Below the pieces are notes generated by a model. That model had not been told where the DNA came from and did no database searches. It saw nothing but the letters and a program-made list of their open reading frames with translations. A stretch of DNA of 64,000 nt from Cyclonatronum proteinivorum (lineage in GTDB: Bacteria; Bacteroidota; Rhodothermia; Balneolales; Cyclonatronaceae), in contig NZ_CP027806.1 in NCBI RefSeq assembly GCF_003353065.1, forward strand, positions 1,505,353 to 1,569,352. The letters are read 5' to 3'. Each line of letters opens with the position of its first letter. The stretch's first letter is position 1. Position numbers and translations under genes: made by a program. Shown piece by piece: positions 33,966-50,961 of the stretch.

Positions 33966-34007
33966 ATGCCATCCCCAACAGTTTTCTTTGACAGTAGGAG
34001 ATGGCAT
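33966..34007 (-). terminator. Terminator-like hairpin downstream of the small-peptide gene
   Basis: On the minus strand ATGCCATC (34007-34000) pairs with GATGGCAT (33973-33966), with further partial pairing inside (ACTGT/ACTGT region), followed by TTTTATTTT. It would end transcripts coming from the S9 peptidase / 40-codon gene side. The MITE copy at 34067-34292 lies between those genes and this hairpin. Confidence 0.7.
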
Positions 34008-34066
34008 AGTATGGGTTGCCTTCAAATCGGACTATCCGGAGGAGAAACAGATTTACCTGTTGCTAA

Positions 34067-34292
34067 CCCGCATTATTCACATTTAAACTGAATTTATTTG
34101 CTAAATGTAAGTTTAAATTTGGCTTAGTGAAAAACACCGGTAGCCCGAATTTAAGTGTGGTGTGAAGACTGCGAAATTTCCCCGCTGGCTACGTTGAAGC
34201 TGAAAACTCATGCTCAGGGTACTTAGGTACCCCTCCGCTGAGTTTTCAGCTTCGCCTTGCCAGCAAGAAAATTTCTTGGTGAATAATGCGGG
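34067..34292. mobile_element. MITE-like element, copy A (226 bp, 14-bp inverted termini, CTAA duplication)
   Basis: Terminal inverted repeats CCCGCATTATTCAC (34067-34080) and GTGAATAATGCGGG (34279-34292) are perfect. CTAA directly flanks both ends (34063-34066 and 34293-34296), a 4-bp target duplication. No coding frame is present. The interior holds a nested palindrome: GCTGAAAACTCA (34199-34210) pairs with TGAGTTTTCAGC (34239-34250), and GGGTAC with GTACCC inside it. Related copies are at 43495-43750 and 52434-52621. Confidence 0.9.
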
Positions 34293-34415
34293 CTAAACCG
34301 GTGGCGGTGGTGGCGGGGGTGGAATCGGTACGGAGAGAGGCGACATAAGCGCGACGGAAACATCCGAATCAAATGTGGTTACCCGCAATCCCGGTTTTTG
34401 ATAGGACTCTTTCAT
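34293..34415 (-). CDS. 40-residue 'Y-x-KP' peptide ending in a polyproline run
   Basis: A complete small frame from the ATG at 34415 to the TAG at 34293-34295 encodes MKESYQKPGLRVTTFD..., then SVALMSP and a tail of I, eight Pro and V. The N-terminal pattern MK-x2-Y-x-KP-x-L-x-V resembles numerous very short Bacteroidota proteins of unknown function that start MKKxYxKPxLxV (recalled from knowledge, not searched). It lies 88 bp downstream of the S9 peptidase gene on the same strand. Its stop codon lies within the CTAA target duplication of the MITE, so the insertion did not change the coding end. A role as a structural, signalling or modified peptide cannot be told from sequence. Confidence 0.55.
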   Translation of the reverse strand: MKESYQKPGLRVTTFDSDVSVALMSPLSVPIPPPPPPPPV

Positions 34416-34503: not shown

Positions 34504-36639
34504 TTATTTCAGGTATTTATCCAGCCAGCTGTAGAACTCGCGGTGCCAGAGCAGGCTGTTCTGCGGGGTGAGAATCCAGTGGTTTTCGGTGGGGAAGAGC
34601 ACCATGCGGCTGTCGATGCCGAGGCGCTGTGCCGCGGTGAAGGCCTGAAAGCTTTCAGTGACCGGCACCCGGAAATCGAGTTCGCCGTGAATGATGAGGA
34701 TGGGTGTATCCCAGTTTTGGACGAAGAGGTGGGGCGAGTGCGCGTCGTAGCTCACCGGGCGCGGCTCTTCCCAGTAGGAGCCGCCGAGGTCGAAGTTTAC
34801 GAAAAACATTTCCTCGGTGGTGCCATACATGGCCTCGAGGTGGAACACCCCGGCATGGGAAATGAAGGCGCTGAAGCGGCCTTCGTGGTTGCCGGCCATC
34901 CAGAAGACGGAGTAGCCGCCGAAGCTTGCGCCTACGGCACCGAGGCGGTTTTCATCGACCCAGGGTTCTTCTTTGACGTTATCGATGGCGCTGAACAAAT
35001 CCTGCATGGCCTGTCCGCCCCAGTCGCCGCTGATTTGGCGGTTCCATTCTTCGCCGAAGGAGGGAAGTCCGCGGCGGTTCGGGGCGACAACAACGTAGCC
35101 GGCGTTGGCCATCACCTGGAAATTCCAGCGATAGGAGAAGAATTGTGAGACGGTGCCCTGCGGGCCGCCCTGTGCGTAGAGAAGGGCCGGGTACTGCTGC
35201 GATTCATCGAAATTCGGGGGGAGGATGACCCAGACGAGCATTTGTTTGCCGTCCGTGGTTTCGACCCAGCGTTGGGTGACCTCGCCCAGGGTGAGGCTGC
35301 CCATCAGCTCGTCGTTGATGTGGGTGAACCGGTCCATGGCGCCGTCTTCGGCGGCAACGAGGTAGAGCTCGACCGGCGAGGACATGGACATGACGCCCGC
35401 AACGAGCACCGGGTTGCCGTCGGTATCGAGCCCTTCTTCGAAGCCGGTTACATCGTGGATGCCGTCGGTGAGCTGCCGTACCGGCGGGAACATGGAGCGG
35501 GCAAGCATGTTCAGCTCGAAAATCTGCACGGTCGCTTCGATGCCGCTTGTGATGTAAATCCGGCTGCCGTCGCGGCTGAAGCGCGCAGCGTTCATGTTGC
35601 CGTCAAAGCCGGTGCTGAGCTCGCGGGTGTTGCCGGTTTCCAGGTGCAGCTCCATGAGACGGTAGCGGTCGCTCTCGTACATGGGGGTGACCATCTGATT
35701 CCAGATCATGGTGTTGCCGTCGGGGCTGAAGGCAGGGTAAAAATCGTAGCCGGGGTTGGGGGCAGTGAGGTTGCGTGTTTCGCCGGTGCGCAGGTTGTAG
35801 AGGTAGATGTCGGAATCGGTGCTGTAGGCGTACTCGGTGCGGTCCATTTTTTTGGAGGTGTAGGCGATCAGCTCACCGGAGGGATGCCAGGCAATTTGTG
35901 AGGAGCCGCCGAAGGGCTTGAGCGGGGTGTCGTAGGGCTGACCGGCCATGATGTTGAGCGGCTCGCCGGTGAGTGCGCCGTCGGCATAGGGCGCAATATG
36001 CAGGTGACGGTAGGTGCCGTCGTGCCAGCTATCCCAGTGGCGGTACATGAGGTTGTCGATGATGCGGACATTCGCGAGCGGGTACTCGGGGTAGAGGTCG
36101 AGGGAGGTGGGATCAACGCGCACATTCCGCACAAAGGAGAGGTGCCGGCCATCGGGGCTGTACTGCACGAACATCACGCCGCCTTCGATGTCGGTCACCT
36201 GACTGAGGTAGGTGCCGTCGGGGTCCATTTCGTGGAACTGACCGCCGCGCATGAAGCCGATGCGGTCGCCGGACGGATGCCAGACCGGCGCAGAGGCCGA
36301 AGCACCGGTAGTAAGCTGCATGATAATGCCGGAACCGATATCACGCCGGTAGATGTGGGTGGACGACGAATTCTCGTCAACCGACATATAGGTGATGGTG
36401 AACAGCACAGAGCGGCCATCGGGCGACACAACGGGATTTCCAACGCGCCCGAGCTCCATCATGAGCTCCGGGGAGAGTCCGCTGCGGGTATCAGTATCCT
36501 GGATCGTGTTTGCTGTAGCTTGACAGCCGGGAAAGAGGATGAAGGCGAGAAGGATGGTCAAACCGGTTATGATCGTTTTTGGAAACGATACTTCGTTATA
36601 ACGAAATGGTAAAATGGGTGCTGGGTACAGTTTCATCAT
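34504..36639 (-). CDS. S9 family prolyl oligopeptidase-like lipoprotein peptidase
   Basis: About 711 residues. A hydrophobic segment ending in the lipobox LFPGC suggests a lipid-anchored periplasmic protein. The N-terminal two-thirds form a TolB/WD40-like beta-propeller (repeats such as [39 protein letters not shown]). The C-terminal alpha/beta hydrolase has the nucleophile in [11 protein letters not shown], an Asp in HGELDFRVP and a His in TENHWI. It should remove dipeptides or acyl-amino acids from peptides. I use the ATG at 36639 (MMKLY); the frame extends to a TTG at 36675. It is one of three large peptidases in this 9-kb stretch. Confidence 0.88.
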
Positions 36640-36798
36640 GGAGATCTGTTTGTGGGAGGGATAAGGAATTGGCAATAGGTAATAATAATGCTATGCTGCC
36701 AAAAAAGCGTCAGCGGGATTTGCGCTAATTTTTTACTCCGTTTTCCTTGTAAATATGCTTTTGTATTGCCAAATCAACAATATCTACCAGCTTAGAAA

Positions 36799-45813: not shown

Positions 45814-48800
45814 ATGAACAATCATGTTACCAAAGGCTTCGGGAAGCGATTTCCGGGGTTTTTATTGTGGCTGGTCCCCGTTTTTCTGATGGGATTTGCC
45901 GTACAGGTTCAGGCGCAATATACCGGTTCGGGCGCGTTTACGCAGCTCAACGGGCTTGCTGAGCTTGAAGACGGCTATTATGTCGTAACCAACGCCCCCG
46001 GCGAATTTGCCATGAACAGCGCACATACCGGTGTTTTTTTACCTGAAACGCCTGTTAATCCTGTTGATGGAATACTTCAAAATCCTAACGTAGCCGATGT
46101 GTGGCTGATTGAAGCTGACGGTTCTTCCTGGACCATCTTCAGTGAGGCCACGCAGCAATTCGTGTCTTATACCGGTCCCGGGAATAATGTTCAGGTTGTG
46201 GATGAAGTTACCTCTGATAATGACCGCTGGAATTTTGATTTTGCGGATGGTGAATTTGTCTTAACCAATGCAGAGATTACCGAGAGAACGTTGCGCTACA
46301 ACCCCTCATCGCCAAGGTTTGCAACCTACGCTTCAGGTTTCGGACAAAATCTGAGCTTATTCAGACTGGGTGATGACAATGGTACTGAGCCAAGTCCTAT
46401 TGATCCATTTGCGTTGCTTACCCCTCCTAACAACACAAATCTGCCCGTTTTCGAAGGCGGTACCGATGACGTAGTTATTGAGTGGGAAGCAGCCGAAGGT
46501 GCAGATACCTACACCTGGCTTGCCGTAGCTCAGGGCGGCAGCTTTGATGAGCCGCTTCTGGCCATCCCAGCCGACAATGGCGGAGCCGCAACAAGCCTCA
46601 CCCTCACCACAGGTGCCATCTATGATGTACTTGCAGGTCTTGGAATCGAAGAAGGATCTGTTGCCAACCTTACCTGGACTGTAGAAGCAACCGCAGGTGA
46701 CGATTCGCGCCTTGCCATTCAGCAATGGGCCATCAACATTGTAGCGCCGGTTGTACTTGCTGACATTGAAGCCCTGCGCGCAGCCGATACCGGCTCTACC
46801 GTCTATGCTGTAGCCAATGAAGCTACTTTTCTTGGTGGCGACGGTTTCCGGAACACCAAGTTTTTCCAGGACGCTTCCGGATTTGGAATTCAGATAGATG
46901 ATGCCCCTGGCATTATCACATCAACCTATGAAATCGGTGATAATGTCAACTTGCTGCACGGAACATTGGGCGCATTCCAGGGACAGCTTCGCCTGACGCC
47001 GTTTGTAGATTACGGCGCGGCCGTATCCTCCGGAAATGCAATTGACCCCCTTGAGCGCACACTTGATGAACTTTCCTTTGATGATCAGGCCCGTCTGATC
47101 GTAGTTCGTAATGTAGCCTTCGAAAACGCCGGTCAGAATTTTGGCGGTGGCGGTTCTATTACCTCCATCACCGACCCAAGCCTCGACGACTTCACAGGTC
47201 GCCACCGCAATGTGTTTGGCGGTTCTGACATCACCGGTTCACCTATTCCGGAAGGTGAATGGGATATCGTTGCGGTTGTACAGGAAAACAATGCAGGCCT
47301 GAATATTGCGGCACGCAGCCTCGCTGATTTCAGCCCCGCTGATGACGATCAGGCTATTGCCGCCTTCAACCTTCTGTCACCTGCGGACGGTACTTCGCTG
47401 GTAACGTCCCCTGATAACGAAACCGAAGTAATCATCACCTGGGAAGAAGCTGAAGGCGCGGACACCTATACCTGGCTCGCCGTCCTCGACGGCGGTGATT
47501 TCAGTGACCCGCTGCTGGCCCTTCCGGCAGATGATGAAGGCGCAGCGACAACGCTGACGGTAACCGTTGCCGCCCTTGACGGCATACTCGAAGGACTCGG
47601 CGTAGCTGAAGGCGAGAGTGTGAACCTGCAGTGGACAGTCAATGCTGAAGCCGGTGATGACAGCCGCCTGGCGAATATGCCGTTTGGCATCACCCTTGAG
47701 CGCGACAGCGAACAGCCTGCTCCGGCCGCATTCAGCCTGCTGAGCCCGCCTGACAACACCCGTCTGCCTGTTTTTGAAGGTTCGGATGATGCAGTTGTCA
47801 TTGAATGGGAGGCTTCAGAAAACGCCACAAGCTACACCTGGCTGGCCGTCCCCGATGGCGGTGATTTTAGCGACCCGCTGCTGGCCCTTGCAGCTGATGA
47901 GGAAGGAACAGCGAAAACGCTCACCCTCACAAGCGGTGCCATCTATGATGTACTTACATCACTCGGCATTGAGGAAGGAACCATAGCAAACCTTGAGTGG
48001 ACTGTCGAAGCCGCCAATGGCGGTCTTACCCGTCTTGCCGATCAGCAATGGAATATCAGCCTTGTCGCGCCGGTAGTTGTTGCCGATATCGAATCGCTCC
48101 GCGGTGCTGAAACCGGCAGCACAATGTATGCCGTAGCCAATGAAGCTACTTTCCTTGGTGGCGACGGTTTCCGGAATACCAAGTTTTTCCAGGACGCTTC
48201 CGGATTTGGAATTCAGATTGATGACCAGCCGGGCATTATCTCGTCAACCTACGAAATCGGTGATAATGTGAACATGCTGCATGGAACATTGGGCATATTC
48301 CAGGGACAGCTTCGCCTGTCGCCGTTTGTTGACTTTGGTGCGGCCGTTTCCTCCGGTAATGAAATTGAGCCCCTTGAGCGTACGCTTGATGAGCTTTCCT
48401 TTGATGATCAGGCCCGTCTGATCGTGGTTCGCAGTGTTTCCTTCCAGAACGCCGGTCAGAATTTTGGCGGTGGCGGTTCTATCACCTCCATCACCGACCC
48501 GAGCCTCGACGGCTTCAATGGTCGCCATCGCAACGTGTTTGGTGGTTCTGACATCACCGGTTCACCCATCCCGGAAGGCGAGTGGGATATCGTTGCAGTG
48601 GTACAGGAAAACAATGCGGGTCTGAATATTGCCGCCCGTAGTCTGGCTGATTTCAGTCCTGCAGAAGCGGCTATTGCAGCCTTTGACCTCCTTGCGCCTG
48701 CTGACGGTACAAGCCTTGTAACCTCACCTGACGACGATACCGAAGTGGTCATCGAGTGGGAAACTGCCGAAGGTGCTGAAACCTACACCTGGCTTGCTGT

Positions 48801-50961
48801 AACTGCCGGTGGTGATTTCAGTGATCCGCCGCTTGCTATTCCTGCTGATGATGAAGGCGCAGCTACAACGCTTACCGTGCCTGTTTCAGCCCTTGACGGC
48901 ATTCTCGCAGATCTCGGTATCGAAGAAGGTGGTATTGCAAACCTGCAGTGGACTGTTCGTGCTGAAGCCGGTGACGAAACCCGCCTCGCCAACAGCCCGT
49001 TTGCCATTACGCTTGAGCGTGCTTCTGAACTGCCTGTACCGGCAGCTTTCGACCTGCTCAGCCCGCCAAATAATGCACGTATTGCTGTATTTGAAGCAAA
49101 CGATACCGAGGTCGTCGTAGAGTGGGAAGCAAGCGAAAACGCACAGACTTACACCTGGCTTGCAACCCTGCCAGAGGGTGATTTTGATGAGCCGCTGCTC
49201 GCTATTCCTGCCGATGCAGACGGTGCTGCAACAACACTAACCCTCACTTCCGGCGCTGTTTATGCAGCCTTGACGGGTCTCGGTATTGATCCCGGCACAA
49301 CGGCAACCATTCAGTGGACCGTTAGAGCGGAGAACGATGACTTGACCCGCCTTGCCAATCAGGCATGGACGCTCGTGATCGATGTGCCGCTTGAGGTTAC
49401 CCTCAACGAAGCCCGTGTGCTGCCCGCGAATACGGTTGTGAGCACGTCAGGTCTCGTAACAACACCGGATTTCGGCTTCAACGCTGCGGAGTTCTACTTC
49501 CAGGATGAAGACGGCGGGATGAAAGTCCGCTGGCCCGGCTTTGGGGGCGGAAACACCGACACCCCGTTTGCTGCCGGTCAGGAAGTTCAGATCGTTGGTT
49601 TTATGACGGAGCGTTTCCAGGAAATAGTGATTCAGCCAACAGCTTTTGAAATTCTTTCAGAGGATAACACGCTGCCTGAAGCCAACCCGATCATCGATTA
49701 CGATACGCAGTGGGTGTTCGACAGTGCCGATCAGGGTCGCCGCGTTACCATCCTTGAAGTTTCGCTCGTAGATCCGGATCAATGGCCAACGGAGCCGATC
49801 TCAGCCGGAAGCGGTGTAACCGTTGAAGCGATTGACGCAGATGGCAACATCTATGACATCCGGATTGACCGCGATGAGTCTGAATTCGAAGCAAGCCCGG
49901 TACCGCCAGCAGTCTTTAACCTCTCAGGTGTGCTTGGCCGCTTCAACGAAAACGCGCAAATCTTCCCCTTCTTCGCTTTCGAACTGGAAGAAGTAGCGGA
50001 GTCACCGCGCGTTCAGCTCATCCACAACGCAGCTGATCCGGCCCTTGCCAACGTTGATGTGTATGTTGATGGCGGACTCCTGTTCGGTGATGTGCCTTTC
50101 CGCGGTGCAACGCCGTTCTTTGAAGCTCCCGCCTCTTTCACCGTAAGCCTCACCGCTGCCGGTGCACCCATCGAAGACGCCGTATTTGAAGCCGAAGTTG
50201 AGCTCGATGGCGGCGAATCTTACTATATCATCGCACAGGGTGTACTTGATCCTGAAGCCTTTGATTCGAATCCGAACGGCATCAGCACAGCCTTCACCCT
50301 CGATATTATCGAAGGGGCTGTCGAAGGGGCAAGCGTACCCAACGCCTTCGATTTCATCATCTACCACGGCGTTACCGACGCTCCTGCAGTAGATGTTGTC
50401 GCGCGCGATCTTGCGGCCCTCGCCGAAAACCTCTCCTACACCGACGTGAGTGAATTCTTCATTCAGGTCCCGGCTGATGTTTACACGCTTGATGTGAACC
50501 CTGCCGGAACACCAGACCCGGTGTTCAGCTTTGATGCCGATCTCTCGGCCTTTGCCGGACGTTCCGGAGTAGTGCTTGCGAGCGGTTTCCTCGACGCTTC
50601 ACAGGGTGAAAGCTTTGGCCTCCTCGCGGTACTCGATACCGGCGAAGTTGCCTTCCTAAACCCATCTACAAGCCTCGGGCCCATTGACGGTGTTCCTGTA
50701 GCATTCGAGCTCAGCCAGAACTACCCGAACCCGTTCAACCCCACAACGCAGATTCAGTACGCCCTCCCCGAAGCCACTGATGTACGCGTTGAAGTCTTCA
50801 ACATCTCAGGTCAGCGTGTAGCAGTACTCGTTAACGGTCAGCAGGCCGCCGGGGTACACAACGTAACCTTTGATGGCAGCCGCCTCTCAAGCGGCGTGTA
50901 CCTGTACCGCATACAGGCAGGCAGTTTCCAGCAGGTCCGCAAAATGATGCTCGTGAAATAA
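45814..50961 (+). CDS. Large secreted modular protein (Fn/Ig-like and OB-like modules, DUF4397, sorting tail)
   Basis: 1715 residues. The signal peptide ends at VQAQ (about 34). Five SusE/Fn3-like modules start at residues about 199, 518, 640, 957 and 1079 (F-x-LL-x-PP/PADxTxLV..., EWEAxExAxTYTWLA). Three OB-like segments lie at about 316-500, 755-945 and 1200-1330. A DUF4397-like domain (VQLIHNAADPALANVDVYVDG) lies at about 1395-1610. A type A sorting domain (YPNPFNPTT) covers 1630-1715. No catalytic motif was identified. Order: A-OB-B, A-OB-B, A-OB; the first two units are near-identical DNA copies. It is probably a cell-surface or extracellular adhesion or carbohydrate-binding scaffold (inference). 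It ends at a strong terminator. Confidence 0.8.
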   Translation: MNNHVTKGFGKRFPGFLLWLVPVFLMGFAVQVQAQYTGSGAFTQLNGLAELEDGYYVVTNAPGEFAMNSAHTGVFLPETPVNPVDGILQNPNVADVWLIEADGSSWTIFSEATQQFVSYTGPGNNVQVVDEVTSDNDRWNFDFADGEFVLTNAEITERTLRYNPSSPRFATYASGFGQNLSLFRLGDDNGTEPSPIDPFALLTPPNNTNLPVFEGGTDDVVIEWEAAEGADTYTWLAVAQGGSFDEPLLAIPADNGGAATSLTLTTGAIYDVLAGLGIEEGSVANLTWTVEATAGDDSRLAIQQWAINIVAPVVLADIEALRAADTGSTVYAVANEATFLGGDGFRNTKFFQDASGFGIQIDDAPGIITSTYEIGDNVNLLHGTLGAFQGQLRLTPFVDYGAAVSSGNAIDPLERTLDELSFDDQARLIVVRNVAFENAGQNFGGGGSITSITDPSLDDFTGRHRNVFGGSDITGSPIPEGEWDIVAVVQENNAGLNIAARSLADFSPADDDQAIAAFNLLSPADGTSLVTSPDNETEVIITWEEAEGADTYTWLAVLDGGDFSDPLLALPADDEGAATTLTVTVAALDGILEGLGVAEGESVNLQWTVNAEAGDDSRLANMPFGITLERDSEQPAPAAFSLLSPPDNTRLPVFEGSDDAVVIEWEASENATSYTWLAVPDGGDFSDPLLALAADEEGTAKTLTLTSGAIYDVLTSLGIEEGTIANLEWTVEAANGGLTRLADQQWNISLVAPVVVADIESLRGAETGSTMYAVANEATFLGGDGFRNTKFFQDASGFGIQIDDQPGIISSTYEIGDNVNMLHGTLGIFQGQLRLSPFVDFGAAVSSGNEIEPLERTLDELSFDDQARLIVVRSVSFQNAGQNFGGGGSITSITDPSLDGFNGRHRNVFGGSDITGSPIPEGEWDIVAVVQENNAGLNIAARSLADFSPAEAAIAAFDLLAPADGTSLVTSPDDDTEVVIEWETAEGAETYTWLAVTAGGDFSDPPLAIPADDEGAATTLTVPVSALDGILADLGIEEGGIANLQWTVRAEAGDETRLANSPFAITLERASELPVPAAFDLLSPPNNARIAVFEANDTEVVVEWEASENAQTYTWLATLPEGDFDEPLLAIPADADGAATTLTLTSGAVYAALTGLGIDPGTTATIQWTVRAENDDLTRLANQAWTLVIDVPLEVTLNEARVLPANTVVSTSGLVTTPDFGFNAAEFYFQDEDGGMKVRWPGFGGGNTDTPFAAGQEVQIVGFMTERFQEIVIQPTAFEILSEDNTLPEANPIIDYDTQWVFDSADQGRRVTILEVSLVDPDQWPTEPISAGSGVTVEAIDADGNIYDIRIDRDESEFEASPVPPAVFNLSGVLGRFNENAQIFPFFAFELEEVAESPRVQLIHNAADPALANVDVYVDGGLLFGDVPFRGATPFFEAPASFTVSLTAAGAPIEDAVFEAEVELDGGESYYIIAQGVLDPEAFDSNPNGISTAFTLDIIEGAVEGASVPNAFDFIIYHGVTDAPAVDVVARDLAALAENLSYTDVSEFFIQVPADVYTLDVNPAGTPDPVFSFDADLSAFAGRSGVVLASGFLDASQGESFGLLAVLDTGEVAFLNPSTSLGPIDGVPVAFELSQNYPNPFNPTTQIQYALPEATDVRVEVFNISGQRVAVLVNGQQAAGVHNVTFDGSRLSSGVYLYRIQAGSFQQVRKMMLVK
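46408..47730 (+). repeat. Internal tandem duplication, unit 1 (A-OB-B modules)
   Basis: Encodes residues 199-639. It is repeated head-to-tail by 47731-49047 with an offset of about 1320 bp (440 codons), keeping the frame. The OB-like core is the most similar part (for example 46810-47340 against 48130-48660). Confidence 0.85.
47731..49047 (+). repeat. Internal tandem duplication, unit 2 (A-OB-B modules)
   Basis: Second copy of the 46408-47730 unit, residues 640-1078. A third, strongly diverged A-OB unit follows from 49048, suggesting two rounds of duplication of different age. Confidence 0.85.

Follow-up and report, generated by a model that had tools for sequence, protein, structure and literature searches.

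The closest described systems are lasso peptide pathways, in which the leader motif YxxP(xL) is bound by RREs (PMC12710340, PMC6784204) and YxxP is the characterised RRE recognition sequence (PMC12710340). In bsf-type lasso leaders YxxPxL is reported to span positions -17 to -12, a Thr is described at -2 in other lasso precursors, and BsfK acting with BsfB1 phosphorylates core Ser3 of the YxxPxL precursor BsfA (PMC10368454). In the account given there, replacing Y, P and L of BsfA together left phosphorylation in place and merely reduced cleavage (PMC10368454), and YxxPxL is thus not strict proof of RRE use.

Here we describe a family of 14 short genes carrying such a motif, one of which lies in the window, the whole 64-kb stretch of DNA that was analysed. 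We consider it rather probable that the encoded peptide is a RiPP-like precursor guided by an RRE; it may be phosphorylated at an invariant Ser25 and cleaved, and its product would probably act alongside T9SS cargo.

The window gene and its relatives

The gene runs on the minus strand from an ATG at 34413-34415 to a TAG at 34293-34295 (ORF 34415..34293), and its product ends in eight consecutive prolines and a final valine, so that both the 40-codon reading frame and the proline run of the original prediction are present. The features of the locus are as follows, with the leader/core boundary taken from lasso numbering.

34293..34415, minus strand: candidate precursor peptide gene, 40 codons plus TAG; MKESYQKPGLRVTTFDSDVSVALMSPLSVPIPPPPPPPPV
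34341..34415, minus strand: peptide residues 1-25, including the putative leader; MKESYQKPGLRVTTFDSDVSVALMS
34296..34340, minus strand: variable tail, residues 26-40; PLSVPIPPPPPPPPV; the predicted core is residues 22-40
34504..36675, minus strand: S9 prolyl-oligopeptidase-family gene, upstream of the peptide gene; Pfam PF00326, E 9.8e-55
33966..34007, minus strand: hairpin and T-rich run read from the sequence, a possible terminator
34067..34292, unstranded: MITE-like element of 226 bp abutting the stop codon of the peptide gene; ITR CCCGCATTATTCAC
34063..34066, unstranded: left target-site duplication, CTAA
34293..34296, unstranded: right target-site duplication, CTAA, containing the TAG stop codon

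The S9 peptidase gene (36675..34504) shares the direction of the peptide gene, as had been proposed without naming a strand, and is separated from it by 88 nt. The hairpin, earlier called a terminator in the same direction, is visible and is followed on the minus strand by a T-rich run, although it is absent from a consensus terminator scan that permits only 3-8 nt loops. Between it and the peptide gene there is the MITE-like element and no further same-strand gene, and a consensus scan found no sigma-70-type promoter site near the peptide gene. Neither Pfam nor NCBIfam gives a match for the peptide at E <= 10, T9SS sorting domain included, and no signal peptide is visible by eye.

As originally described, the stop codon (34295..34293, minus) falls within a CTAA copy of the target duplication. 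At least 40 near-full-length matches to the element are present in the window's genome (40 of 144 candidates having been scored). Of 15 copies read together with their flanks, 13 are framed by two identical 4-bp sequences (TTAA, CTAA, TTAG or GTAG), one has a single mismatch between its two, and one was left unparsed. At the peptide gene the duplicated CTAA re-creates the stop codon, which is therefore the same after the insertion as before it; since most duplications are TTAA, CTAA or TTAG, the element can land in a stop codon and leave one behind.

A 21-residue block without gaps, Y-x-x-P-x-[LIV]...D...S-x-[VA]-[LM]-M-S, is common to all 14 family members, and in it (window numbering) Y5, P8, D16, M24 and S25 are invariant and S20 is present in 13. 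Spacing is equally regular, with L, I or V two residues past the P in every copy, the S at Y+15 in 13 of the 14, and M-S at Y+19/20. Three members are in the window's genome (G000, a single contig of 4.29 Mb with two paralogues beside the window gene), five in G003 and six in G002; the other three genomes of the genus (G001, G004 and G005) have none, and the family is thus present in three of six. The further members recovered from 11 family-level genomes are in G003 and G002, and a 13-member profile added one extra copy, L053 in G002.

The original prediction of a spread across Bacteroidota or Balneolota was not supported, as no family member was confirmed outside the genus in overlapping sets of genomes from the order (128), the class (244) and the phylum (394). 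Matches were obtained in five genomes of the order (13-member profile, E <= 0.05), two of them by chance, in four of the phylum (E <= 0.01), again two by chance, and in three of the class (14-row profile, E <= 0.001). One candidate, L041 in G025, resembles the motif and is antisense to a 120-codon ORF, making it a chance match; L042, L054 and L055 were rejected as lacking such a short ORF, and the weak matches L011 and L010 (G001 and G007) and L004 have no family ORF. A contig scan with a four-row alignment gave 4 confirmed stretches among 27, all in the MAG PXDL01 'Balneolia bacterium isolate T3Sed10_333R1' and apparently four G002 contigs; its pattern was IDNEISVV, and members of the window's type were therefore not findable by it. 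In a scan of viral contigs none of 81 stretches was confirmed.

T9SS neighbours and the PqqD/RRE locus

In 12 of the 14 cases the gene directly upstream, on the same strand, ends in a T9SS type A tail and lies 27-176 nt before the peptide start, and the other two, the window gene and its orthologue (L025), are behind an S9 peptidase gene at 88 and 170 nt. Pfam confirms the T9SS domain in seven of the 12 upstream proteins (L006, L005, L020, L021, L023, L024 and L027), that of L022 (G002:C128) is taken from the genome listing of T9SS domains, and those of L026, L028, L029 and L053 are assigned from C-terminal sequence only. At L025 the peptide gene is followed by one for a T9SS-sorted DUF285 protein, and the window has none at that place.

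There are 59-117 T9SS sorting domains per genus genome, including the genomes lacking the peptide, and most T9SS cargo genes therefore have no peptide. Among 30 control loci with T9SS sorting domains, eight contained a short ORF that satisfied a loose Y..P motif; only one of these, L095, also had the MS motif, and it was already a family member. The probability of the adjacency comes to 2.6e-17 for 12 of 14, or 1.2e-13 for 9 of 10 with like loci merged by eye, illustrative figures that assume 100 sorting-domain genes in 3500 (chosen round numbers) and an independence that is violated by paralogues. Paralogues could have been copied as a unit of sorting domain plus peptide, so that the 12 T9SS-adjacent copies are not independent.

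Two T9SS genes have features of their own. The T9SS-sorted gene upstream of one G000 paralogue (L005:3005-8788) is split into three consecutive ORFs, whereas its G003 counterpart (L028) is a single ORF of 1997 codons, and the G000 copy is either a broken gene or a sequencing error. In the window, a T9SS sorting domain at 50722-50949 (G000:C1:1556074-1556301) ends a 1715-codon ORF (45814-50961), behind which no family peptide was found.

The second association is with a PqqD protein, the gene for which in the window's genome is located elsewhere on the chromosome.

C1:4181865-4182158: stand-alone PqqD/RRE gene of the window's genome

Searches with PF05402 found a single PqqD each in G000 and G003, two in G002 and none in G001, G004 or G005, in agreement with an order-wide protein search. 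Peptide and close PqqD thus co-occur exactly within the genus, both being present in G000, G002 and G003 (three of three genomes with the peptide) and neither in the remaining three. Physical linkage is seen at one of the 14 peptide loci, L020 in G002, where a T9SS-domain gene, a peptide gene and two PqqD genes lie in a row. A Rieske-type oxygenase-like ORF, recognised by eye, follows the two PqqD genes (L020:5937-7043) and could be a chance neighbour or a tailoring enzyme.

The PqqD matches PF05402 above its cut-off (E 1.8e-18), and the solved chains that it matches are the lasso PqqD chaperone 9x90 and TbiB1 (5v1u). The best NCBIfam match is NF033536 (lasso_PqqD_Bac) at 9.4e-10, and its 38.5 bits against a cut-off of 80 place the protein outside that lasso subfamily by NCBI's rule. 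A structure model of the first of the two G002 proteins (mean pLDDT 87.5, from a two-row alignment) most closely resembles leader-bound lasso B1 proteins, with Z 9.8 for 6jx3 (82 aligned, 2.8 A), 9.1 for 5v1u (79 aligned, 3.1 A) and 8.7 for 5v1v, the next row reaching only 7.5; Foldseek of the model against the PDB gave no match below E 0.001 (best 3.0e-3).

In G000 and G003 the PqqD gene diverges from genes for an HprK-like kinase and an S24/S26-like peptidase. The gene that follows PqqD in both genomes encodes a T9SS-sorted protein, and the G000 protein also scores 134.3 bits against the model of the MXAN_6640-family putative metalloprotease, just short of its cut-off of 140. The kinase has the P-loop GVSGVGKST and an NDD (HprK_rel_B, 7.8e-9). 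The peptidase (PF00717, 1.2e-6) has the boxes GQSMYP and IAHR, which we take to be its Ser/His active site. The kinase does not reach the Pfam cut-off, and no NCBIfam cut-off is reached by it or by the peptidase. Neither was found in G002, an 89% complete assembly of about 600 contigs and the genome with the most peptide genes. PqqD, kinase, peptidase and the T9SS adjacency all lie outside the window or in other genomes, and none of them was part of the original prediction.

These associations bear on whether the peptide is modified at all. It could instead be a small protein that stays unmodified and serves T9SS cargo as a surface, adaptor or chaperone peptide, with the conserved block binding a partner and the proline-rich tail being a flexible extension, an account that fits both the T9SS adjacency and the failure to find a kinase or peptidase of this kind in G002. 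The exact co-occurrence with PqqD, the peptide-PqqD-PqqD arrangement in G002, the RRE recognition motif and the lack of a visible signal peptide all argue against it, and we regard it as rather unlikely.

Lasso register, tails and selection

Numbered from Y as -17, a convention borrowed from lasso peptides, the P is at -14 and the L/I/V at -12 in all 14 members, so that the leader motif is of a class already known for RRE recognition, and position -2 is Ser in 13 and Met in one, where other lasso precursors have Thr. This register, together with a PqqD nearest to lasso B1 proteins, would suit a lasso precursor whose cyclase and leader peptidase are encoded elsewhere or are highly divergent. 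Elsewhere in the order, too, more distant PqqD proteins occur in 11 genomes (E 4.1e-6 to 8.6e-4); they belong to other loci, and some of those at L063, L064, L069, L072 and L078 have ORFs next to them that look B2-like, HprK-like or nucleotidyltransferase-like (judged by eye, eight loci inspected), neighbours that make these probable lasso-type clusters. G009 also has a PqqD locus.

Two observations speak against a lasso product in this family. B2 (Transglut_core3, PF13471) was found in none of the six genus genomes at E <= 0.001, the control matching 2 of 14 named genomes. Lasso core residue 1 is usually Gly, Ala, Ser or Cys, with Asp or Glu at 7-9, whereas the residue predicted here (Y+17) is V in 13 members and A in one and the tail has no conserved acidic residue. 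A lasso peptide is therefore very improbable.

The tails following the block are 4-30 residues long and are proline-rich in most members, with proline contents from 20% to 67%. A fixed block followed by a variable tail is the layout expected of leader and core in RiPP precursors, as judged from the alignment, and a conserved leader with a variable core is typical of those dependent on an RRE. A C-terminal proline run is not conserved across the family; of the combination for which a search had been suggested originally, N-terminal motif plus proline tail, the motif is found in every member and the tail is variable, and no homologue was confirmed outside the genus.

The eight prolines of the window copy and the nine of its orthologue could also be read as the functional part of a translation-arrest or EF-P-dependent regulatory peptide. 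Runs of this length occur in those two only (the tails of L009, L017 and L053 are 20-24% proline), the conserved part is at the opposite end from the prolines, and in the window no same-strand gene follows before the hairpin, leaving this explanation extremely doubtful.

Over the leader block pS is 0.59-0.97 and pN 0.04-0.25 in all nine pairs compared, and the protein sequence is therefore under strong purifying selection. With 13 further members and pS far in excess of pN the short ORF is above chance and is a real gene, as the original prediction had it, with a conserved Y-x-K-P-type N-terminus. A chance ORF, for which its mere 40 codons and want of any Pfam or NCBIfam match might speak, is contradicted by the 14 members, the invariant residues and the strong synonymous excess, and can be set aside as next to impossible.

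Proposed maturation and comparison with known systems

Under the preferred reading as an RRE-guided precursor, residues 1 to about 21 would be the leader, with Y-x-x-P-x-[L/I/V] predicted to be bound by the stand-alone PqqD/RRE protein, which would hand the peptide on to maturation enzymes from genes next to its own. The HprK-like kinase would most likely phosphorylate Ser25 and the S24/S26-like serine peptidase most likely remove the leader, giving a short peptide from near V/A-L-M-S to the variable, often proline-rich tail. Of the three loose guesses made originally, a signalling, structural or modified peptide, it is the last that the evidence favours.

A role at the cell surface, alongside T9SS cargo, is probable for the mature product, as 12 of the 14 copies follow T9SS-sorted genes and PqqD precedes one in two genomes. 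The gene family, its selection, the leader/core layout, the identity and predicted fold of PqqD, the co-occurrence and the gene neighbourhoods are direct results, around which we infer binding, phosphorylation, cleavage site, export and the link to cargo, the T9SS link being a genetic one. An RRE-presented, Ser-phosphorylated and cleaved precursor would be the simplest reading of these facts, by analogy with BsfA/BsfB1/BsfK.

A more ambitious version, which we hold to be decidedly unlikely, is an RRE-peptide-tailoring pathway dedicated to T9SS, in which most peptide genes travel with one cargo gene, a shared RRE, kinase and peptidase process the precursor, and the mature proline-rich peptide leaves the cell with the cargo or becomes joined to it at the surface. 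If the preferred reading is right, the family would use a lasso-type recognition motif without a lasso leader peptidase, and a single central RRE locus would serve precursors from several scattered genes. Should the T9SS adjacency prove functional, it would join the fields of peptide tailoring and T9SS; no paper linking RRE/RiPP precursors with T9SS was found in a literature search at set term thresholds.

The bsf lasso cluster, as far as it is described in PMC10368454, shares with this system a YxxPxL-type leader, a stand-alone PqqD/RRE, a kinase partner and a Ser near the core start. It differs in having Thr or Ile, as in lasso precursors, where Ser is at -2 here; in our family no B2 was found, the core does not start with Gly, the tail is proline-rich, the peptidase is S24/S26-like, and the precursor genes are dispersed around the chromosome, most of them following T9SS genes. 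Of the cassettes named in NCBIfam, SynChlorMet is similar in that its ScmC and ScmD are matched by the kinase and the PqqD respectively, but both matches are far under the cut-offs (22.7 of 125 bits and 22 of 100 bits). The PqqD falls below the cut-off of the NF033536 peptide chaperones, yet exceeds that of PF05402 and has the predicted fold of this family. Unlike T9SS type A cargo (TIGR04183/PF18962), the peptide itself has no sorting domain, but most of its genes directly follow such cargo genes, and in G000 and G003 PqqD precedes one.
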